Shown here one piece after another: positions 29,045-42,571 of a stretch of 61,462 bases of DNA (positions within the stretch are counted from its first letter, which is position 1; every line of letters starts with the position of its first letter). Under the pieces are notes generated by a model that saw nothing but the letters and a program-made list of their open reading frames with translations, had not been told where the DNA came from and did no database searches. The position numbers and the translations under genes are program-made. The stretch is from assembly GCA_029243595.1 (NCBI GenBank), contig JAQWRQ010000027.1:1-61462 (forward strand). The letters run 5' to 3'. The DNA comes from Gammaproteobacteria bacterium (lineage in GTDB: Bacteria; Pseudomonadota; Gammaproteobacteria; PS1; Pseudothioglobaceae).

Positions 29045-30553
29045 TTATGCGTTGTTATGGCGGCGATAACCAATCGCTTCAATTAAATGTTGTTTATCAA
29101 CTGTCTCACTGCTATCAATATCAGCAATGGTTCTAGCGACTTTAAGTATTCGATGATAAGCTCTCGCTGAAAGCTGTAATTTATCAATTACAGCTTCTAG
29201 TAACTGCGTATTTTCTTTATCTAACGGTACCATTTTTTCTACTTCATCGGGGGTCAGCAAGTCATTCGATTTACTCTGCCTGCTCAGTTGCCTATTATAA
29301 GCACTTAGCACTCTATCGCGTATGGTTTCACTATTTTCAATCTGCTCTTGGGATTGACTCAATAACACTTCTTTAGGCAGTGGTGGCACATCCAGCACCA
29401 TATCAATACGGTCTAGCAGTGGGCCTGATATCTTTGAATGATATTTATCTACCTGGTCTTCAGTGCAGTGGCATTTGGCCGTTCCATCGCCAAAATGCCC
29501 ACAAGGACAAGGATTCATCGCACCAATCAATTGAAAATTAGCAGGGAATGTGGTTTGTTGCGCCGCACGAGACAAATGCACTTCACCATTTTCTAAGGGT
29601 TGTCTTAACACTTCTAAAACATTACGAGGAAACTCGGGCAACTCATCTAAAAATAACACACCTTCATGTGCTAAAGATATTTCACCTGGTTTAGGGTTGG
29701 CGCCACCACCTACTAGAGCGACTGCAGATGACGAATGATGAGGCGATCTAAAAGGTCGAATTTGCAAATCATTCAAACTCAGTGGTTTGTTTGCAACTGA
29801 ATAAATTGAAGCACGCTCTAATGCTTTATCGGTGGTTAGTGGCGGCATGATCGACGGCAGTCTTTCTGAAAGCATGGTTTTTCCAGAACCTGGCGGACCA
29901 ATGAGCAGGATATTATGCCCACCAGCGGCAGCAATCTCTAATGCGCGCTTTGCATGATATTGCCCTTTAACTTGGGAAAAATCTTTATTATATACAGCGG
30001 CTTTCTGCGCACCAATACTGGGTTTCTTTATTTCAGAAACGCCTTGCAAAAATCCACAAACTTCTAGTAAGTGCTGACTTGGATAAATTGACGCACCTTC
30101 AACTAGTGCACCTTGATCGTAATTTTCTTTTGGGATAACAACAGAATGCTGATTATTTGTCGCTTCAACAATGGCAGGCAATAGACCTTCTGTTGGTCGG
30201 AGCAGGCCATCAAGACCCAGCTCACCAAAAAATTCAAACTTAGTGATATCGAGTTTTGTCTTAAGCTGGCCTGATGCAATTAACAAGCCTAGGGCAATTG
30301 GCAAATCATAACGACCCCCGCTTTTAGGTAAGTTTGCTGGCGCCAAGCTCACGGTAATTCGCTGGTTGGGAAATTTAAATTGTGAGTTCATTAGTGCGCT
30401 TCGCACACGATCTTTAGACTCTTTAACCGCACCCTCTGGTAAGCCGACAATTGCAAAACTTGGCAGACCGCCTGAAATATGCACCTCGATCGTCACCAAG
30501 GGAGCATCCATTCCTGTAGACGCTCGGGTAAAAACTTTAGCTAGTTGACTCAT
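29045..30553 (-). CDS. comM: ComM/YifB-family AAA+ ATPase (Mg-chelatase-like)
   Basis: ComM is a hexameric branch-migration helicase that promotes integration of DNA in natural transformation in Vibrio and relatives; it is also widespread outside competent species. The 502 residues include an N-terminal Lon-like S5 domain (about 1-190, with [18 protein letters not shown]), Walker [16 protein letters not shown], and Walker [13 protein letters not shown] zinc-finger-like [15 protein letters not shown] and a C-terminal helical domain with [18 protein letters not shown] follow. It overlaps tsaD by 4 bases. Confidence 0.93.
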
Positions 30554-31572
30554 ACAGCTTCTAACTCTTCAAGGCTCCATCTGGGCTTGACGATGATCTC
30601 ATTACCAACTGAAACTTGTCCTTTGGTTAATCGTAAATGCCCAGCAAGAGCGATCATTGCACCGTTATCAGTGCAAAACTCTTGCCTAGGATAGAATACT
30701 TCGGCATCTAGTTTTTTTCCCATTTTGTTTAAAACCTGGCGCAAAGATTGATTAGCACTAACGCCACCTGCTACCACCAAGGTGGAATATTTAGTTTTCT
30801 CTAATGCACGTCTACACTTAATCATCAGAGTTTGTGTGGCTGCTACTTCAAAAGCCTTAGCAATATCGGCTTTTTGCTCTGGGTGTTTGGCAAATGTATT
30901 GCGTGCAAATGTCTTTAAACCACTGAAACTAAAATCCAGGCCTGGGCGATCTGTCATCGGCCTTGGAAATTTGAACTGAGTATCGTCACCTTGTTCAGCT
31001 AACGTTGCCAGTGCTGGCCCGCCTGGGTAGCCCAGTCCTAAAATTTTGGCAGTTTTGTCAAACGCCTCGCCCACGGCATCGTCTAGTGATTCACCTAGTA
31101 TTTGATAATCACCAATGCCTTTAACATCGACCAACATTGTGTGCCCACCAGACACCAATAATGCTACAAATGGAAATTGTGGCTGTGTTTCTTCAAGTAG
31201 TGGTGCTAACAAATGCCCTTCCATATGGTGCACTGCTAAAGCAGGAATATTAAGACTCCAAGCCAAACTCCTAGCAACTGATGAGCCTACCAATAAAGCC
31301 CCTGCCAAACCTGGACCAGCTGTATAGGCAATACCGCTAACATCACTAAGCTGGAGCTTTGCCTCAGATAAAACCGCTTTAATTAAAGGAATGGTACGTT
31401 GAATGTGATCACGCGAAGCTAGCTCTGGCACTACGCCACCATATTCTGCATGCATCTCAACCTGTGAAAACAATTGATGCGCGATCAAGCCTTGGTCTGA
31501 TGAGTACAGGCCGATACCAGTTTCATCACAAGAGCTCTCAATACCTAGTGTAACAAAGGGCTTAGTGCTCAC
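30550..31572 (-). CDS. tsaD: tRNA N6-threonylcarbamoyladenosine transferase TsaD
   Basis: TsaD transfers threonylcarbamoyl to A37 of ANN-decoding tRNAs with TsaB and TsaE. The 340-residue protein starts [14 protein letters not shown], has the metal-binding HHMEGH (about residues 115-120), the VSGGHTMLV segment, and the C-terminal [16 protein letters not shown]. Many gammaproteobacteria place tsaD beside rpsU; here it lies between comM and lptB, overlapping both (4 and 11 bases). Confidence 0.96.
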
Positions 31573-32296
31573 TATTTGATTCGCCTAAGTAGACTTTTTT
31601 AACATCCTCATGAGATAAGATTTCTTCTTTATTGCCTTTGGCAATAATTTGCCCACCATGAAGCACGTAAGAGTGATCACAAGTATCTAGCATTTCTCGA
31701 TAATTATGATCAGTAATAAGCACACCAATGCCTTTGTCTCTCAGGTGATAAATAATTTGCTGAATATCACCCACTGAAATTGGGTCAACGCCAGCAAAAG
31801 GCTCGTCTAACAATACAAATTTTGGATCCATTGCCAACGCTCTAGCAATCTCAACACGTCTACGCTCACCGCCTGAAAGACTTAAGCCGTCAATATGACG
31901 AATGTGCCCAATACTAAACTCATCTAACAATTCTTCTAATCGGTGTTTTCTTTGTTTTTTATCTAGCTCAGTATTGAGCTCCAAAACCGCCATGATATTA
32001 TATTCAACAGACAGCTTTCTGAAAATAGAAGGCTCTTGAGGCAGGTAACCCAACCCTAGTTTTGCGCGCTTATGCATCGGTAATTTACTTACTTTGGTGT
32101 TGCCAATATACACCTGGCCTTTGCCTGCTCTTACTAGACCGCAAGCAATATAAAAACACGTGGTTTTACCTGCACCATTCGGCCCTAACAAACCAACAAT
32201 TTCACCCGCTTTTACTTCAAAAGAAACATCGCTAACAACCTCACGTCGAGTGTATTTTTTTCGAATATTTTGAACAGTTAATGTGTTTTCTTGCAT
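31562..32296 (-). CDS. lptB: LPS export ABC transporter ATPase LptB
   Basis: LptB powers extraction of lipopolysaccharide from the inner membrane with LptF/LptG/LptC. The 244 residues contain Walker [14 protein letters not shown], the Q-loop region [19 protein letters not shown] typical of LptB, signature [15 protein letters not shown], Walker [14 protein letters not shown] and switch His in [12 protein letters not shown]. LptA and LptC genes, normally directly upstream, are absent; birA lies upstream instead after 38 bases. Confidence 0.94.
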
Positions 32297-32334
32297 AAAT
32301 TAACAAAGCATTGTTTTGAGTGCCTAATCTTACC

Positions 32335-33084
32335 CTAAATTAGGCGAATTTGTTCAGAGCTATAAGCTTCAATCATAGTGTTGTCTGACTTGATCAATAA
32401 CGCACCTTGCTCGTTGACTCCGCTGGCAATGCCGACAGTTCTGCTGTTTTGATAATCAAGTTCCAACTGCTTTCCTAGTAAATAATCATACTGATGCCAT
32501 TGGGACTTGAAACCGGAAAATCCGTGTTGTTCAAAATACTGACAAGACTTTAATAAGTTGTTGATCAGTTTTTCATGCAAGGCTACTAAATTAGGAAGAT
32601 TTGAACAAATTTTTGACAAATCAGTCCATGGCGTATCGCATTCAAAGCTTGCATCCAATTGATAATTTAGGCCCAAGCCTATAACCACTGATTGGTGATT
32701 ATCTTGCACAGTATTTTCGATCAAGATACCAGCAATTTTTTGATCTTTAAAATAAACATCATTTGGCCATTTAAGCTTTAAGTGTTCAACTTGATATTCG
32801 TCTTCTAATGTATTAATTATCGATAGGCCTATTGCTAAACTTAGGCCGTTTAAAGCAACATCAACAGAAAATGGTCGGCGCAACGACAACAAAACACTAC
32901 TGTCTTTTTTGCTCAGCCATGTTCTTTGGTACTGTCCTTTGCCGGCAGTTTGCTCTCTCGCAATACAGACTTTAACATCTTTAGAAAAAGGAAACTTAAC
33001 TAGGTAGTCATTGGTGCTAGTTGTTGATTCTAAAACAAAGCATTCAACACCACTATCAAGTCTTAAATCAGAATAATCAATCAT
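32335..33084 (-). CDS. birA: Biotin-[acetyl-CoA carboxylase] ligase, short form
   Basis: BirA activates biotin with ATP and attaches it to carrier lysines such as AccB. The 249 residues cover the catalytic and C-terminal domains only: STNDYLVKF, the adenylate loop EQTAGKGQYQRTWLS (family GRGRxGRxW, here with Gln substitutions), LKWPNDVYFKDQKIAGILIE and the C-terminal SH3-like VNEQGALLIKSDN. The DNA-binding domain that lets Escherichia coli BirA repress biotin genes is missing, so this is a class I, non-regulatory ligase. Confidence 0.92.
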   Translation of the reverse strand: MIDYSDLRLDSGVECFVLESTTSTNDYLVKFPFSKDVKVCIAREQTAGKGQYQRTWLSKKDSSVLLSLRRPFSVDVALNGLSLAIGLSIINTLEDEYQVEHLKLKWPNDVYFKDQKIAGILIENTVQDNHQSVVIGLGLNYQLDASFECDTPWTDLSKICSNLPNLVALHEKLINNLLKSCQYFEQHGFSGFKSQWHQYDYLLGKQLELDYQNSRTVGIASGVNEQGALLIKSDNTMIEAYSSEQIRLI

Positions 33085-33134
33085 AGAGCAATATTTGATA
33101 AAATAACTAAATTAATTTTACACCTTAATTATTT

Positions 33135-33878
33135 ATGAAATTAGCACTCGGTGTTGAGTACCTAGGTACAGACTTCCATGGCTGGCAGTTGCAAAAATCT
33201 GGAATTCGAACGGTTCAACAAGTGGTTGAAGAGTCTTTATCGAGCATTGCTGACGAACCTGTTCGCGTGTTTTGCTCTGGCAGAACTGATGCTGGTGTCC
33301 ATGCTTTGGAGCAAGTCATTCATTTTGAAACTGATGTAGTTCGAGAAGATAAAGCCTGGTTGTTTGGTGGTAATGTTAACCTACCTTACGATGTAAATTT
33401 TAAATGGGTTAAGCGAGTGGATGATGATTTTCATGCGCGTTTCAACGCCCATGCTAGGCAATACCACTACAAAATCCACAATACGCCAGTACGCTCTGCG
33501 TTAGTGTCTGCATATACATTGTGGGAGCCGAGAGTATTAGATATAGCGGTCATGAAGCAAGCTGCTGAGTACTTATTGGGTGAACATGATTTTTCTAGCT
33601 TTAGAGGGAGTTTGTGCCAGGCAAAATCCCCTATCAAAACCATTGAATTCATTCGCTTGGCCCAGGCCGGAGATGAAATATTATTAGACATTAAAGCCAA
33701 CGCCTTCTTGCACCACATGGTGCGTAACATCGTAGGCACACTACTCAAAGTTGGTAGAGGTGAAAAACCGGTTGGATGGGTTAAAGAAGTGCTAGATGCA
33801 AAAGACAGAAAACGTGCTGGCGCTACTGCCGAACCACAAGGTCTATACTTTGTAAAAGCCTTTTACAAAAAGCTGTAA
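33135..33878 (+). CDS. truA: tRNA pseudouridine synthase A
   Basis: TruA makes pseudouridine at positions 38-40 in the tRNA anticodon arm. The catalytic Asp52 lies in CSGRTDAGVHALEQ. Other family segments include YLGTDFHGWQLQ at the N-terminus, RFNAHARQYHYKI, DFSSFRGS and the C-terminal FLHHMVRNIVGTLLKVGRG. The 247 residues are a normal length. It is divergent from birA across 50 bases. The downstream sulP gene is convergent, 46 bases away, and I see no convincing terminator in that gap. Confidence 0.96.
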   Translation: MKLALGVEYLGTDFHGWQLQKSGIRTVQQVVEESLSSIADEPVRVFCSGRTDAGVHALEQVIHFETDVVREDKAWLFGGNVNLPYDVNFKWVKRVDDDFHARFNAHARQYHYKIHNTPVRSALVSAYTLWEPRVLDIAVMKQAAEYLLGEHDFSSFRGSLCQAKSPIKTIEFIRLAQAGDEILLDIKANAFLHHMVRNIVGTLLKVGRGEKPVGWVKEVLDAKDRKRAGATAEPQGLYFVKAFYKKL

Positions 33879-33924
33879 ATACTAGGCCTCAAACAACTAT
33901 CACAACAACAGTTTGCAAGTGTTT

Positions 33925-35682
33925 TTATGATATTAAGTGTTTGAGAGGACTGTGAGAAGCCGCCTCTTCATCACCCAGCTCTTTCCAAGCAAAACGAAGT
34001 GCATCGGTACGACGCTCATAAAAACGCTCTTCACCATATTTGTCCATAAAGCCTGAGCGCTTAAGCACTCTTTCAATGCCCTCAGTACGAGCAAATAAGA
34101 TTTCTACGCCACCGGCAGAACAACGATCTAAAAGCCCTGACAAAACATCTTCTCCAGAAGCGTCAATCTGGTTAATACCGGCCATATCAACAATAATGTA
34201 CTTTAAACACTCGTGTTTATCGGCAATTAGTTTTAAGATTTTATCTTCAAAATAACCTGCGTTAGCAAAGTAAAGCGAGCCAGAATATTTAACAATTGAA
34301 ACCACTTCACAACGATCTAGTTTATTGTCTAGTGCGTTAACAAACATTGACGACCCATCATGGGCAGATAATTCAGTAAATCTTGGCTCCATCGTGCGAT
34401 ACAAGAACAACGTTAATGACAAAATCACACCGATTACAATGCCGTTTTCAAGATGTGGTGCAAATAATAGCGTCAATACAAACGATACAACTGCAACAAT
34501 CGCATCATGCTTTTCAACTTTCCAAGCGTGCATGATTGGTGCAAATTTGATCAGATTAATTACTGCCATGATAATTACAGCTGCTAAAGTTGCTTGAGGT
34601 AAGTGATATAAAAGAGGTGTTAAGAATAACAAAGTAATACCAACAATGACTGCTGTCACTACCGATGAAAAACCTGTAACCGCGCCTGCAGAAATATTAA
34701 CCGCAGAACGTGAAAATGAGCCTGATACTGCATAACCTTGGAAAAGACTAGAAACAACATTTGCCAAGCCTTGGCCCATTAATTCTTGATCAGCATTCAG
34801 GCGCTGTTTGGTTTGCGCAGCCATGGCTTTAGCAATAGAGATAGCTTCCATAAAGCCAATGAGACCAATGGTGATAGCTGTAACAACCATTTGATTGATT
34901 ACAGAAAAATCGAAGCTAGGCATCATCATTGCTGGTAAGCCCTCAGGAATAGCGCCAACAATCGCGCCACCAAGGCCGCCATCTTCCACAGACAAACCAA
35001 AGCTCATTGCCCAAGAGATAATTGTTGTTACTGCAACTGCAATCAAAACGCCGGGTAATTTTGGTGCGTATTTTTTAACACCGATCATAATGGCAAAAGC
35101 AACAATTGCAGCAAATAAAGTCCAACTATTGGTATGCTGAGTGGCATTAACTAACGTACCCCATACTTGCTCGTAAGTATGTTCACCCATACCTTTATCA
35201 ACACCAAATACTTTGTTTAACTGTGATGTTCCAATAATAATCGCAGCTGCGTTGGTAAAACCAACCACCACCGGATGTGATAAGAAGTTAATAACTAAAC
35301 CAAGCTTTAATGCGCCCAAAGCAAACTGAAATACACCTACTAAGAACGCTAATAACGAGGCGTAAGCTGCGTATGTCACCATGTCTGCGCCTGGTGGAAT
35401 AATGGTTGGAATCGCTGCTGCTGTTAATAAAGATACAACGGCAACAGGGCCTGTGCCTAATTGGCGAGATGAGCCCATCAATGCTGCGATCATCACTGGT
35501 AAGAATGAAGCGTATAAACCGTATTGTGGCGCAAGGCCTGCCAATTGTGCATAAGCCATTGATTGTGGCACTAACACCAATGCAACGGTTAAACCTGCAA
35601 CTAAATCTGCTTTTAATATATCTTTATCTTTAATCTCATGAATCCACGCCAAAAAAGGCAAAAACCTTGCAATCTTATCCAT
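33925..35682 (-). CDS. SulP-family anion transporter with STAS domain (first of a divergent pair)
   Basis: This is a SLC26/SulP inner-membrane transporter of 585 residues from the ATG at 35682, which has GGAA 6-7 bases upstream and matches the family N-terminus. An upstream in-frame ATG-like start at 35811 would run through the divergent promoter. The membrane domain (about residues 25-420) has the signature VALVLVPQSMAYAQLAGLAPQYGLYAS. The C-terminal STAS domain (about 440-550) has YIIVDMAGINQIDASGEDVL. Family substrates include sulfate, bicarbonate and other anions; which one applies is not visible. It is divergent from a second SulP gene. Confidence 0.9.
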   Translation of the reverse strand: MDKIARFLPFLAWIHEIKDKDILKADLVAGLTVALVLVPQSMAYAQLAGLAPQYGLYASFLPVMIAALMGSSRQLGTGPVAVVSLLTAAAIPTIIPPGADMVTYAAYASLLAFLVGVFQFALGALKLGLVINFLSHPVVVGFTNAAAIIIGTSQLNKVFGVDKGMGEHTYEQVWGTLVNATQHTNSWTLFAAIVAFAIMIGVKKYAPKLPGVLIAVAVTTIISWAMSFGLSVEDGGLGGAIVGAIPEGLPAMMMPSFDFSVINQMVVTAITIGLIGFMEAISIAKAMAAQTKQRLNADQELMGQGLANVVSSLFQGYAVSGSFSRSAVNISAGAVTGFSSVVTAVIVGITLLFLTPLLYHLPQATLAAVIIMAVINLIKFAPIMHAWKVEKHDAIVAVVSFVLTLLFAPHLENGIVIGVILSLTLFLYRTMEPRFTELSAHDGSSMFVNALDNKLDRCEVVSIVKYSGSLYFANAGYFEDKILKLIADKHECLKYIIVDMAGINQIDASGEDVLSGLLDRCSAGGVEILFARTEGIERVLKRSGFMDKYGEERFYERRTDALRFAWKELGDEEAASHSPLKHLIS

Positions 35683-35743
35683 TTGTATTCCAATTAATTT
35701 AAAAAATCTAACGTCAGACGAGTTAGAAGAATATAAGCGATAT

Positions 35744-35788
35744 ATTATATAATAATACCCCCATTTAATGGGTGTTATTTTGTATAAT
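35744..35788. promoter_or_regulatory. Mirror-symmetric divergent promoter for the two SulP genes
   Basis: A TATAAT reads rightward at 35783-35788 and a TATAAT reads leftward at 35749-35744. Exactly midway (position 35766) is a 13-base palindrome, CCCATTTAATGGG, at 35760-35772. With 17-base spacers, each promoter's -35 hexamer is one palindrome arm (CCCATT), a poor sigma-70 match. This geometry suggests one dimeric regulator controlling both genes. Predicted leaders are about 55 and 60 nt long. Confidence 0.6.
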
Positions 35789-35853
35789 ACTTCACTTGTC
35801 TTTTTCGGCAAAAATTCTTAACTACAGCTCTTAATCATCAACAAGGATGCATC

Positions 35854-37458
35854 ATGAAATTAATTGAAAATCTACACTTTAACAATGTCCGTGGCGATAT
35901 TACTGGTGGTATTACAGCAGGTGTAGTAGCACTACCATTCGCTATTGCCATGGGTTTAGCTTCGGGCGCAGGCGCAATTGCAGGCTTGTACGGTGCAATT
36001 ATCACTGGTTTCTTTGCAGCTTTATTTGGCGGCACAGGTGCACAAGTTTCTGGCCCGACTGGCCCAATGACAGTAGTTATGGCGCTGATTGTAACTAAAT
36101 ACATCGCCATGTTTCCAGAAACGGGCTTGGCTATTGCTTTCACCACCGTGGTTTTGGGTGGTTTATTCCAGATTGGTTTTGGTATTTTAAAGCTTGGTCG
36201 CTTCATCAATCTAATGCCTCACCCAGTAACTTCTGGCTTTATGACTGGCATTGGCGTCATTATTATTATCTTACAAATTCCACAAGTGTTAGGCTTGTAC
36301 GAGATCAAAGGCTCAACCATGGGGATTTTTTCTCAATTAAGTGATGTTGAAAGCTATTTTGCAAATACTGGCGCTATCACCATTGCACTTATTACGTTAG
36401 CAGTTGTTTATTTATTACCTAAGAAAATTGGTAAATTTATCCCTTCACCCTTGTTTGCATTGATTACAGGTACTTTAATCTTATTCTTCTTTCCTGAGTT
36501 TTTCTCATCAGAAGCAGAACCGTTAAACAACATGATTCTAGGTGAGATACCAACAGGATTACCTTCATTCCAAATGCCAGTTTGGGAAGCGAGTATTATT
36601 TTTGATATGGCCGCCTCAGGCATGATGCTGGCTATCTTAGGCTCAATTGACTCGCTATTGACTTCCTTAGTATCAGATGAAATCACTCGCACCCATCATA
36701 AATCAGATCGTGAATTAATTGGCCAAGGTATTGGTAATACCGTATCAGGTTTATTTGGTGGTTTGCCGGGTGCAGGTGCAACCATGCGAACTATGACCAA
36801 CGTTAAAGCTGGTGGCTTAACACCAATTTCTGGTGCATTACACGCTGTTCTGCTATTGGCAATTGTTTTAGGTGGTGCGCAATACGCTCAGTCAATTCCG
36901 TTAGCCGTACTTGGTGCAATCTTAGTTAAGGTAGGCACTGATATTATTGACTGGGAATATTTGAAAGGCTTAATTTCAGCACCGAAGTCTGGCGCACTTA
37001 TTATGATTGTTGTTCTAGGTATTACTGTACTTTACAATCTAATGGCTGCTGTCGGTGTTGGACTGGTGATGGCAAGCTTGATTTTCTTACAAAGAATGAC
37101 AGATGTGCAATTAGCCAGTATTGTTTCTGTGCAAACTATTGAAGATGCTTCACATTTGGATGAAACGCATCAAGAGTTGATTCGTGCTGGCAATACCTTG
37201 TTTTACCAACTTAATGGCCCTATGAGTTTTGGCTCAGCCAAAGGCATTGTTCGAGACTTCTCGACTAAAACTAATTACAATAGAGCGATTCTAGATCTAT
37301 CAAATGTGCCTGTAATTGATTACACCACTTCACGCGGCATTGCTGAGATTTGCAATATTTGTATTGAAAAATCTGCCGATATCACCATTGTTGGCGCCAA
37401 TACCAAAGTTAGGCACTTCTTAGAGAATGTTGGCATTGACAAATCTTTGTTAAGTTAA
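35854..37458 (+). CDS. SulP-family anion transporter with STAS domain (second of a divergent pair)
   Basis: This 534-residue transporter belongs to the same superfamily as the protein encoded at 33925-35682 but to a clearly different subgroup. Its N-terminal signature is GGITAGVVALPFAIAMGLASGAGAIAGLYGA. The SLLTSLVSDEITRTHHKSDRELIGQGIGN segment is well conserved in SulP proteins. The C-terminal STAS domain (about 435-534) has RAILDLSNVPVIDYTTSRGI. The ATG follows AAGGA. It may carry sulfate or bicarbonate. A strong terminator follows at 37475. Confidence 0.9.
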   Translation: MKLIENLHFNNVRGDITGGITAGVVALPFAIAMGLASGAGAIAGLYGAIITGFFAALFGGTGAQVSGPTGPMTVVMALIVTKYIAMFPETGLAIAFTTVVLGGLFQIGFGILKLGRFINLMPHPVTSGFMTGIGVIIIILQIPQVLGLYEIKGSTMGIFSQLSDVESYFANTGAITIALITLAVVYLLPKKIGKFIPSPLFALITGTLILFFFPEFFSSEAEPLNNMILGEIPTGLPSFQMPVWEASIIFDMAASGMMLAILGSIDSLLTSLVSDEITRTHHKSDRELIGQGIGNTVSGLFGGLPGAGATMRTMTNVKAGGLTPISGALHAVLLLAIVLGGAQYAQSIPLAVLGAILVKVGTDIIDWEYLKGLISAPKSGALIMIVVLGITVLYNLMAAVGVGLVMASLIFLQRMTDVQLASIVSVQTIEDASHLDETHQELIRAGNTLFYQLNGPMSFGSAKGIVRDFSTKTNYNRAILDLSNVPVIDYTTSRGIAEICNICIEKSADITIVGANTKVRHFLENVGIDKSLLS

Positions 37459-37474
37459 GCGGCTCATTATTAAT

Positions 37475-37501
37475 AAAAAACCCGCAGTTGCGGGTTTTTT
37501 T
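37475..37501. terminator. Bidirectional rho-independent terminator between sulP and rimM
   Basis: A hairpin with arms AAAAAACCCGCA and TGCGGGTTTTTT closes over a 2-4 base loop. The A run before and the T run after make it usable from both strands, ending the plus-strand sulP and the minus-strand rpsP-rimM transcripts. Confidence 0.85.
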
Positions 37502-37523
37502 ATTGTGTGACATTCTGATATCT

Positions 37524-38081
37524 TTAAAAATCCTCATCCCAATCAACTAATATTTGCTGTTTATCAATATCAACTGAAATCAAAAATGGCTCAATATACG
37601 GCACCCAATGTTCTTTTTTGCCGTTAACCACCAAGACGTTATTGGCGCCTGTGTCTACTAAATTTAACACCTTTCCAAGAACAACATTGTTTTGGTTAAT
37701 GACTTCCAGTCCAATCAAATCTTCCCAATAATGTTTGCCTTTAGGTAATTTTGGTAGTTGTGACTTCTCAATGTATAAATCAACACCAATCATTGGCTTG
37801 GCCTGGTCACGATCATTAGTATCTTTAAGCTGGGCAACAATAGTCTTGCCTTGCTCTCGCCCCTTAATAATATTTAGCGTTTGCCACTGGCCATCTACCT
37901 TGATATGCCAAGGCTGATAAGATAGGATATTTTTTCTAGGATGGGTATGTGAAAATATTTTCACCCAGCCCTGAACGCCAAAAAGGCCATTGATCTTGCC
38001 GACCAACAGCCTTTTAGGACTAGAAGTGGTTGCTGTTGAATTACTCAGCAGCTTTTTCCTCTTCTGCTGGAGTTTCTGCAT
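37524..38081 (-). CDS. rimM: Ribosome maturation factor RimM
   Basis: RimM assists 30S head assembly by binding S19 and 16S rRNA. The protein begins, after a Ser/Thr-rich leader, at [22 protein letters not shown], followed by the PRC-barrel region [33 protein letters not shown], and the C-terminal [28 protein letters not shown]. The ATG at 38081 gives 185 residues but overlaps rpsP by 41 bases; a TTG 25 codons in (near 38006), preceded by AAAAGG, would avoid that overlap. The usual operon partners trmD and rplS do not follow. Confidence 0.9.
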
Positions 38082-38508
38082 CGGCTTCAGCGGCTGCAGC
38101 AGCTTCTGCTTCAGCTGCTGCCTTAGCTTCCGCTTCCTCTGCCGCTTTTGCCTCAGCTTCTGCTTTCGCTTCTTCGTCTGCTTTTGCTTTTGCTTCAGCT
38201 GCTAATTTAGCCGCTATTGCTGCTGCTCTAGCATCTTGCGCCGCAACACGTTTTTCACGAATTGAAGGGTCTTTAAACTCTTTAACAAGTTGCTTAACAC
38301 GATCAGAGATTTGTGCACCTTTTGATGTCCAGTAATCTAATCTATCTTCTTCGATGGTAAGCCTAACTTCTTGTCCACGAGCAACTGGATTAAAATATCC
38401 AATACGCTCAATGTAACCACTGTCTCTACGCTTTCTAGAGTCTGTTGCTACAATTGAATAAAAAGGTTTTTTCTTGGCTCCACCTCGGGCTAGTCTAATT
38501 TTAACCAT
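38041..38508 (-). CDS. rpsP: Ribosomal protein S16 with a long acidic C-terminal tail
   Basis: Residues 1-82 are a standard bS16 ([51 protein letters not shown]). The family is usually 80-90 residues, but this ORF continues to 155 with about 70 residues almost entirely of Ala, Glu, Lys and Asp, predicted to be helical or disordered. A ribosome-binding AAGGAG lies 10 bases before the start. The tail is in frame without a break, so I do not think it is a sequencing artefact. It overlaps rimM. Confidence 0.93.
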
Positions 38509-38569
38509 GGGTTTTTTGCTCCTTTATATTATTTATTTACTCATGCCAAAAACGACATAAGACGCGAAA

Positions 38570-39979
<1,410 letters not shown>

Positions 39980-40012
39980 TTATACGCCTTATATGATTCA
40001 CTTATTAAACAG

Positions 40013-42571
40013 ATGAAAACAGCCTATTTAGCTCACATTGACGAGCGCGCCCGAGACAATTTACCACCATTGGCACTCAATGCAGAACAAACTAAATCTG
40101 TTGTTGAAAATTTAGTTAACAACAATGACGAAAAATTTTATCTTGACCTGTTAACGCATCGAGTGCCACCTGGTGTTGATGAAGCAGCATACGTTAAAGC
40201 TAGCTTTCTATCCAGTGTCGCCAAGGGTGAGCAAAACTGTAACGCGATTAACCCAGAGCAAGCCACTTTTTTGCTAGGCACAATGCTAGGTGGTTACAAC
40301 ATTACGCCGCTAATTGATTTGTTAGACATTGATGCGACCGCTCAGATGGCTTGTGATGCACTGTCTAAAACACTGTTAATTTATGAGGCGTATCAAACGA
40401 TTGTAGAAAAATCTACCGACAATGTCTTTGCCAAAAAAGTGGTTGATAATTGGGCAAATGCTGACTGGTTCACTACCAAAGATGAATTGCCAAGAGAAAT
40501 AAAACTTACAGTCTTTCGTGTTGAAGGTGAAATCAATACTGATGATCTATCGCCTGCTACTGAAGCCTGGTCACGCCCTGATATTCCACTCCATGCACAA
40601 TCAATGCTTGGGAAAACAATGGAAAACCCTTTGGAAACTATCGAAAAGCTAAAAGGAAAAGGCTTGCCATTAGCTTTCGTTGGCGATGTGGTTGGTACCG
40701 GCTCTTCACGTAAATCGGCTATTAATTCTGTACTTTGGCACATGGGTAATGATATGGATTACGTGCCAAATAAACGTGGTGGTGGTGTGGTGCTCGGTGA
40801 CAACATCGCTCCAATTTTCTTTAACACAGCAGAAGATTCGGGCGCATTGCCGATTGAATGTGATGTGACTAAACTCAAGATGGGTGACGAAATTACTGTC
40901 TATCCATACGAAGGTAAAATTATTAACGCCAATGGCAAGGTTGTTTCTACGTTTAAATTAGCGCCAACTACCATGCCAGATGAAGTGCGTGCAGGTGGCC
41001 GTATTCCTTTAATTATTGGCAGGGGCCTTACAGACAAAACCCGTCAAGACTTAGACCTTCCTGTTAGTGAACTTTTCTTGCGCCCACACGATGCTAGTGA
41101 TAGTGAAACAGGCTACACATTAGCCCAAAAAATCGTTGGTAAGGCTTGTGGTGTTGATGGCGTACGTCCTGGCACTTATTGCGAGCCACGCATGACCACT
41201 GTTGGTTCTCAAGACACAACTGGTGCGATGACTCGCGATGAACTAAAAGAATTGGCCTGTCTAGGATTTTCTGCTGACCTGGTCATGCAGAGCTTTTGTC
41301 ATACCGCTGCCTACCCAAAGCCGGTGGATTTAGAATTACAACATTCATTGCCTGACTTTATGCAATCTCGTGGCGGTGTGGCACTTAAGCCAGGTGATGG
41401 TATTATTCACTCATGGCTTAATCGCATGCTACTACCTGACACGGTTGGCACAGGTGGTGATTCACACACACGCTTTCCAATTGGCATCAGTTTCCCAGCA
41501 GGCTCTGGTTTGGTGGCTTTCGGTGCATCAATTGGGGTATTGCCGCTGGATATGCCAGAATCAGTATTGGTTAAATTTAGTGGCGCCATGCAAGAAGGTA
41601 TAACACTGCGTGATTTGGTTAATGCTATCCCGTATGTTGCTATTCAGCAAGGCCTATTAACCGTTGAGAAATCTAATAAGAAAAACATTTTCTCAGGTCG
41701 TATTCTAGAAATTGAAGGTTTGGGCGATCTTAAAATTGAACAAGCTTTTGAACTCACTGATGCTTCTGCAGAACGCTCAGCCAATGGCTGTACTATTAAA
41801 CTTAACAAAGAGCCTGTAGCGGAATACTTACAATCCAACATTGCCTTATTGTCTTCAATGATAGAAATGGACTATGAAGATAAAAAAACCATTGCGCGTC
41901 GCATCCAAGCCATGCAAAAGTGGTTAGATGCACCTGAGTTATTAGAGGCGGATAGTAATTGTGAATATGCAGCAGTAATAGAAATTAATCTTAATGATGT
42001 TAAAGAGCCGATTCTCGCCTGTCCGAACGATCCAGACGACGTTAAGTTGCTCTCTGATGTGGCCAATACTCAGATCGATGAAGTCTTCATCGGCTCTTGC
42101 ATGATGAACATTGGACATTTTAGAGCGGCTGCACAATTGTTAAAAAACACAACAGAAACAAAAACAGAACTATGGATTGCGCCGCCAACCCGCATGGACG
42201 AAGCGCAACTCAAAAAAGAAGGTGTCTACACAGTCTTTGAAAATCTTACAGAACGCACTGAAATACCAGGCTGTTCACTGTGCATGGGTAACCAGGCACG
42301 TGTTGAGAATAGCGCCACTGTGGTTTCAACTTCAACACGTAATTTCCCAAATCGTTTGGGCGATGGTGCTGATGTATATTTGTCTTCTGCTGAAGTCGCA
42401 GCGATTACTTCTAGATTAGGCCACATCCCTACCCATGAAGAATATCTCAATGCAATGAAAGAGATACAGCCTATGTCTGATGACATTTATCAATACTTAA
42501 ACTTTGATCAAATCTCTGAATACCAAGAAGCAATCGGGCACATTGCGCTCGATACAATTCTTGAAAAGTAG
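40013..42571 (+). CDS. acnB: Aconitate hydratase B
   Basis: AcnB interconverts citrate and isocitrate with a [4Fe-4S] cluster. The N-terminal HEAT-like domain includes [22 protein letters not shown], followed by the swivel domain ([25 protein letters not shown]) and the catalytic domains. Cluster ligands are the Cys in [18 protein letters not shown] and the two Cys in [13 protein letters not shown] choose the ATG at 40013 (852 residues; family about 865), since the family starts near this helix; an in-frame ATG at 39971 would add 14 unmatched residues that overlap the likely promoter. Confidence 0.94.

Follow-up and report, generated by a model that had tools for sequence, protein, structure and literature searches.

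A conserved, predicted back-to-back promoter pair between two divergent SulP transporter genes in the SUP05/Thioglobus group

Classical divergent promoters of the back-to-back type overlap within a short divergent intergenic region, where two outward-facing -10 elements enclose abutting -35 positions. The locus described here lies in a window of 61,462 nucleotides (the whole stretch of DNA that was analysed) and shares with this arrangement the outward -10s, the abutting -35 positions and the short gap. It differs from it in that canonical -35 hexamers are missing, and in that the spacing and the centre are unusually strictly conserved.

A second related system is the bidirectional promoter of Warman and Grainger. 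According to the accessible part of PMC12825309, these are pseudo-symmetric sequences that give rise to divergent mRNAs from one shared -10 and often lie between functionally linked genes; distances of 10, 18 or 23 bp between the starts are common. Divergent transcripts are likewise predicted at the present locus, and steric competition between polymerases is possible in both cases. Here, in contrast, 33 bp lie between the two -10s and approximately 58 bp between the predicted starts. The Warman-Grainger geometry could fit only the left block of the element and a symmetric ATTATAAT found in two related genomes (G027 and G031), and not the main pair.

The third comparison is with cyanobacterial bicA, whose product is resembled by that of the plus-strand gene at this locus, ligand residues included. 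The cyanobacterial bicA repressor NdhR/CcmR recognises the motif ATAG-N8-CTAT (in the accessible part of PMC13249358), which by eye is not the conserved core found here, and the LysR model is not found in every genome that carries the present element. Divergent promoters with overlapping elements are already known. Three things are particular to this locus: a split mirror form strictly conserved in one clade, its replacement by one symmetric -10 in G027 and G031, and the fact that the two genes apparently encode a sulfate-type and a bicarbonate-type transporter. A literature search on the locus found no such element described in titles and the beginnings of abstracts, which is not proof of absence, and the accessible part of PMC5928099 holds nothing on these genes.

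The locus thereby offers a sequence-defined, conserved and putatively regulatory element that joins a sulfate-type and a bicarbonate-type transporter in the SUP05/Thioglobus group. Members of this group are expected to live on sulfur oxidation and CO2.

The gene pair and the intergenic element

A gap of 171 bp separates the minus-strand SulP gene (ATG at 35682) from the plus-strand SulP gene (ATG at 35854; Table 1). The mechanically called reading frame of the former extends to 35811, and the ATG at 35682 was taken as its start. The minus-strand protein scores 475.8 bits against TIGR00815, above the cut-off of 380.45, and its closest solved structure by sequence is plant chloroplast sulfate transporter 4.1 (7lhv_A, E 8.5e-93). 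The plus-strand protein scores 549.2 bits against NF050096, which is below the equivalog cut-off of 880. Its closest solved structure is 6ki1_A (E 3e-111), whose entry is labelled a low affinity sulfate transporter and which we take to be BicA. Comparison with 6ki1_A (by eye, with an offset of +1) shows that T69, D258, T262, G300, A301 and T302 are identical at six of six positions; in cyanobacterial BicA, these residues are reported to bind HCO3- and Na+ (PMC13249358, accessible part). The plus-strand gene is BicA-like, and its product is a putative bicarbonate transporter.

Table 1. Coordinates of the genes and of the sequence features between them (window positions)
Feature	Position	Strand	Basis or remark
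SulP, sulfate-permease type, 585 aa, Sulfate_transp + STAS	33925..35682	-	PF00916, PF01740
Terminator-like hairpin + T-run in predicted sulP leader	35707-35727	-	Terminator rule
AATATwAG box at predicted sulP transcript start	35730-35737	either	Conserved in 15 copies
-10 TATAAT of predicted sulP promoter	35749-35744	-	Invariant in 15/15 aligned copies
TATAATAAT, a possible additional plus -10 that overlaps the minus -10	35748-35756	+	35753 is T in 14/15, rest invariant
CCCATTTAATGGG, 13-base palindrome	35760-35772	both	Centre 35766; outer arms not conserved
CATTTAATG, conserved core	35762-35770	both	Inside CCCATTTAATGGG
TTTTGTATAAT, predicted bicA -10 + invariant TTTTG	35778-35788	+	Invariant in 15/15 copies
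Candidate bicA leader stem-loop TTGTC-TTTTTC-GGCAA at predicted transcript start	35796-35811	+	13/18 carriers
BicA-like SulP, 534 aa	35854..37458	+	NF050096, 6ki1_A, ligand residues

As the original prediction had stated, a TATAAT on each strand is equidistant from the centre of CCCATTTAATGGG. Each begins at a distance of exactly 17 bases, and the plus-strand copy occupies 35783-35788. An outward TATAAT-like -10 on each strand thus falls within a single polymerase footprint. The two hexamers at the -35 positions (YNCATT) stand back to back inside CCCATTTAATGGG. It was also read correctly that these positions are poor at a spacing of 17 bp: both strands present CCCATT, which matches TTGACA at one of six bases, and neither promoter has a recognisable -35 hexamer at 16-18 bp. 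Transcripts would be expected to start near 35737 (minus strand) for sulP and near 35795 (plus strand) for bicA. Given the possible plus-strand -10 within it, the left block ATTATATAAT could itself be two-way.

Conservation and the tie to the gene pair

To define the element across the family, a composite pattern was used that comprises the left block, two letters of the centre and the right block, with other lengths permitted. It matches in 15 of the 83 family genomes, once in each, always at the SulP locus and always with a length of 41 bases, against 0 matches for the control. Three variant carriers bring the total to 18: G018 (45 bp), G025 (44 bp, one base shorter) and G092 (50 bp, five bases longer), the last of which retains the ATTTAATGT core.

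The 45-bp copies from 15 of the 18 carriers (all except G021, G025 and G092) were aligned. CATTT and TTTTGTATAAT are the same in every copy, and so is ATTATATAATAAT apart from a single copy that differs at 35753. At 35760, 13 copies have T and two have C; 35761 and 35771 are variable. Most flanking columns carry little information, the exceptions being the box at 35730-35737, the bases TAT at 35741-35743 and some of the columns of the bicA leader stem-loop. Since the sequences are related by descent, the alignment columns are not independent. Near-identical copies are nevertheless excluded as the cause of the conservation, because the flanks have diverged.

The comparison of relatives therefore bears out one half of the original prediction and not the other: the spacing and the -10s are retained, while the 13-base palindrome, which had been proposed as the unit shared by both promoters, is missing from most. 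Its exact sequence is present in only two of the 18 carriers, the window and G006, owing to variation at 35760, 35761 and 35771, and the consensus is reduced to the core CATTTAATG. This core, of 9 bp, is conserved as a consensus. Two-fold symmetry of the centre is supported in part: over the 15 copies, a mean of 5.33 of nine pairs match about the midpoint, compared with at most 4.13 at 24 other centres. Together, the strong conservation of the -10s, the spacing and the centre supports the proposal that this is a shared divergent promoter for both SulP genes.

The element is tied to the gene pair. At a threshold of E<=1e-150, 20 of the 83 family genomes have a bicA orthologue; 14 of these (G021 among them) hold the exact pattern and two hold a variant. 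In the remaining four, a single symmetric ATTATAAT stands between the two genes in place of the element (G027 and G031), no sulP orthologue is found at the threshold used and the element is missing (G012), or a contig end cuts bicA (G095). Two carriers lie beyond these 20, one with bicA cut by a contig end (G015) and one with a bicA remnant (G018). Conversely, among the six genomes with a sulP orthologue in which no bicA orthologue was found (G007, G098, G102, G032, G100 and G014), the pattern occurs in none, nor was the element seen by eye upstream of sulP. Outside the family, ten more distant bicA-like loci were compared; only one has sulP in the examined flank, in tandem and not divergent. 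With one symmetric -10 in G027 and G031 and a split, mirrored pair of -10s in the carriers, the family would provide a natural series in which to study the evolution of divergent promoters.

Two of the carriers show disrupted loci. In G018 (L067), both -10s and the CATTT core persist beside the bicA remnant, and the left block reads TATAAC on the plus strand where the other form is TATAAT. In G021, Candidatus Thioglobus pontius (L011/L037/L121 and L062), the left block is interrupted at TATA; by eye, TATA is found at each of the two contig ends, which also have an inverted stretch in common, a picture that resembles the insertion of a transposable element.

Named relatives of the plus-strand gene include Candidatus Thioglobus perditus, Candidatus Thioglobus pontius and an uncultured SUP05 cluster bacterium, as well as a Candidatus Ruthturnera and a Bathymodiolus heckerae symbiont, which places the window in the SUP05/Thioglobus group. 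A review whose figure is based on finished genomes describes the Thioglobus/symbiont clade as being without inorganic-carbon transporters. The presence of BicA-like genes in 20 of 83 family genomes sits badly with this statement, which is worth re-examining.

Mirrored -10 elements might simply arise by chance in AT-rich DNA, and several counts show how readily they do. ATTATA-N33-TATAAT occurs once in the window, where 0.01 would be expected, although the expectation rises to 0.42 when any gap of 20-50 is accepted. In 823 kb of the organism's own genome, gaps of 10-80 yield 11 outward mirror pairs, two of them at gap 33, against seven inward-facing pairs. Hand tallies of the search tables for the family and for genus g4 (12 genomes) point the same way: the gap-33 pair is found at 50 sites in 36 of the 83 family genomes, which does not exceed the 62 sites of the reversed-pattern control, and in g4 gaps of 20-50 yield 148 sites against 297 in the control. 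At gap 33, g4 has 21 sites against three in the control, but these are largely orthologous repeats. Judged from sequence, mirror geometry alone is thus unremarkable in such DNA; what is notable is its recurrence at one locus with extra conserved letters. Fifteen of the 50 family sites come from the SulP locus alone, where further letters are conserved within diverged flanks, and a chance arrangement is accordingly very hard to credit.

The idea that a gap of 33 is a preferred promoter architecture was likewise set aside: the 21 of 148 sites in g4 are mostly orthologous, and at least the gaps of 35 and 40 recur in the same way. The second gap-33 pair in the organism's own genome (G000:C51:13579-13623, L157) lies between rhodanese-like and dxs-like genes, named by eye, and has an unrelated centre. 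A second conserved mirror element with this gap, ATTATAATACTT...TATTTATAAT, is present in nine of the 12 g4 genomes (G028, G021, G097, G098, G101, G103, G032, G100 and G011); at L175 it lies between divergent reading frames, of which the plus-strand one is RelA/SpoT-like and the minus-strand one begins like a lipoprotein and by eye resembles BamD.

Promoter architecture and the question of a dedicated regulator

The reading that we favour, with a probability of roughly two in three, is that two sigma-70 promoters overlap back to back in a compact arrangement. The minus-strand -10 would drive the sulfate-permease-type SulP gene and the plus-strand -10 the BicA-like gene. As the -35 positions abut, a polymerase bound in one orientation would be expected to cover the opposite promoter, such that only one could be occupied at a time. 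CATTTAATG, TTTTG and TAATAAT can be understood as promoter contacts at the -35 position, in the spacer and in the AT-rich upstream region. The -10 region of each promoter would then sit at the upstream contact zone of the other, and mutual exclusion is expected for this reason. The expression ratio of the two transporters could in this way be coupled without a dedicated regulator.

Several statements in the accessible part of PMC12825309 bear on this mechanism. Opposing polymerases cannot simultaneously bind promoters with a shared -10, and AT-rich spacer DNA makes up for a missing -35. Divergent but separate promoters are, on the other hand, unaffected by such clashes, and at five E. coli bidirectional promoters the basal activity is too low for competition; exclusion may therefore matter little.

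The same bases allow a different assignment, in which a bidirectional promoter of the Warman-Grainger type, with starts near 35737 and 35760, occupies the left block ATTATATAAT and the right -10 belongs to an extra plus-strand promoter, making three promoters in all. The start distance of 23 bp is among those common at bidirectional promoters (PMC12825309, accessible part), TATAATAAT is nearly invariant on the plus strand also, and G027 and G031 have their one symmetric ATTATAAT between the genes. By eye, however, the hexamer 17 bp upstream of the plus-strand -10 of the left block is not a -35, and the conservation of TATAATAAT could be accounted for by its bases serving as the AT-rich spacer of the minus-strand promoter. 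A set of three promoters is consequently a tentative reading, and on balance an unlikely one.

In the alignment columns, YNCATT stands 17 bp upstream of the -10 in both directions and is not a sigma-70 -35; its conservation fits a bound protein at least equally well, and counts against the favoured reading. The same is true of G092, which has the parts at a different spacing, and of G021 with its interrupted left block.

As the original prediction proposed, a dedicated dimeric regulator might bind a central pseudo-palindrome (approximately 19 bp, ACMYNCATTTAATGNRKGT, from the alignment columns) and switch both promoters jointly or oppositely; we consider this a possibility at clearly worse than even odds. 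It draws on the symmetry of the centre described above, on the invariant CATTT and conserved AATG, both of which lie outside any sigma-70 consensus, and on the retention of ATTTAATGT in G092 despite the altered spacing. Such a regulator may exist, because the centre is symmetric and conservation of its letters exceeds that required of a simple spacer. Against it, conservation within the core is weaker on the right side than on the left, and no regulator was noticed by eye among the reading frames at window positions 30000-41000.

Nor does the element appear to belong to a regulon. The exact 13-mer, which it had been suggested to seek elsewhere, occurs once in the organism's own genome of 1.098 Mb. 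Matrix scans of 823 of the 1,098 kb gave no comparable second site, so that a regulon sharing the composite or its centre was rejected. The full matrix scores 63.9 here, 13.4 when this site is read on the opposite strand, and 6.4 at the best site elsewhere (reversed control -2.8). In these 823 kb, the plus-half matrix likewise scores 41.4 here and 15.8 at best elsewhere (control 13.4), the minus-half matrix 37.0 and 14.0 (control 9.5), and the centre-only matrix performs no better than its control.

The suggestion that the regulator is of the LysR or Crp type is disfavoured. These two families were searched with PF00126 and PF13545, which at E<=0.001 are found in 15 and 12 of the 18 carriers, respectively. 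Allowing for possible assembly gaps, PF00126 was not found in G021 (99% complete), G096 or G015, and PF13545 was not found in the organism's own genome, G003 (99% complete), G004, G008, G025 or G101. The proposal of a single dimeric regulator thus keeps its footing in the symmetry and the conserved letters, and loses it with respect to a second site and to the families named; it is possible and unproven.

The argument that the poor -35s in themselves call for a regulator is also weak, since many TATAAT sites of this genome have a poor -35. In 823 kb, 71 TATAAT sites lie upstream of genes; a -35 match of at least four in six is found at 14 of them, which is close to the 16% at random positions, though a match of five or six is found at five, compared with 3%; the divergent-gap list of this survey leaves out the present pair, the sulP reading frame having been called too long. 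A general promoter type of the form CATT-N17-TATAAT was also considered for this genome and rejected, there being no peak at that spacing.

Transcript leaders and other recurring elements

The inverted repeat might alternatively form an RNA or DNA hairpin, such as a terminator or the end of a mobile element. A fold can be drawn (z -1.86), and a scan finds 5-bp stems on both strands. Yet 13 of 200 shuffles fold equally well or better, the CCC/GGG arms are not conserved, the best Rfam hit reaches 19.9 bits where the gathering score is 176, and the central repeat lies upstream of both predicted starts. A hairpin at the centre is therefore most improbable.

Better candidates for RNA structure lie in the two predicted leaders. 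The bicA stem-loop occurs at the same place in 13 of the 18 carriers, with no anchored hairpin in G013, G023, G025, G018 or G092, and in 11 of the 13 (all but G003 and G008) the fold surpasses those of 96% or more of the mononucleotide shuffles. Over all 18 carriers the mean z of this part of the leader is -2.9, compared with -0.4 in the next part. Pairs were counted from the folds, MAFFT having misaligned loops of differing length. Pair 4 covaries as T-A, C-G, G-C and T-G. Pair 5 is either C-G or T-A, except for one mismatch, and pairs 1 and 6 are broken in five and three genomes, respectively. The predicted stem-loop is thus supported by compensatory changes, and would probably serve mRNA stabilisation, protection of the 5' end or the tuning of translation.

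The predicted sulP leader contains a hairpin with a T-run behind it in 11 of 17 carriers (G021 left aside), compared with 3.4 expected from dinucleotide shuffles, the genomes not being independent. This hairpin was aligned within two groups of carriers; by eye, the first group shows mostly one-sided (G-U) changes and the second a few two-sided ones. Partial termination would be its likely role.

Combining these leaders with the predicted promoter pair, one could envisage an either/or switch that needs no regulator: across a fixed 33-bp gap, one polymerase would choose the sulfate-type or the bicarbonate-type transporter, the two promoters having split from a single -10 such as that of G027 and G031, with the leader hairpins tuning each transcript. 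This fuller scheme is speculative, and we hold it to be rather doubtful.

Another motif suggested by other matches in the family, TTAGAA-N-TTCTAA, was discarded, as it is not enriched in the organism's own genome (five sites against four in the control). A further promoter-like element, TTAGAA...TTCTAATAT...TATAAT with variants, recurs just upstream of reading frames for secreted WGPF-repeat proteins at L168, L169, L170, L171 and L173, that is, twice in G029, twice in G103 and once in G018; in G097 (L172) it faces off the contig end. These WGPF-repeat proteins presumably resemble sulfur globule proteins.
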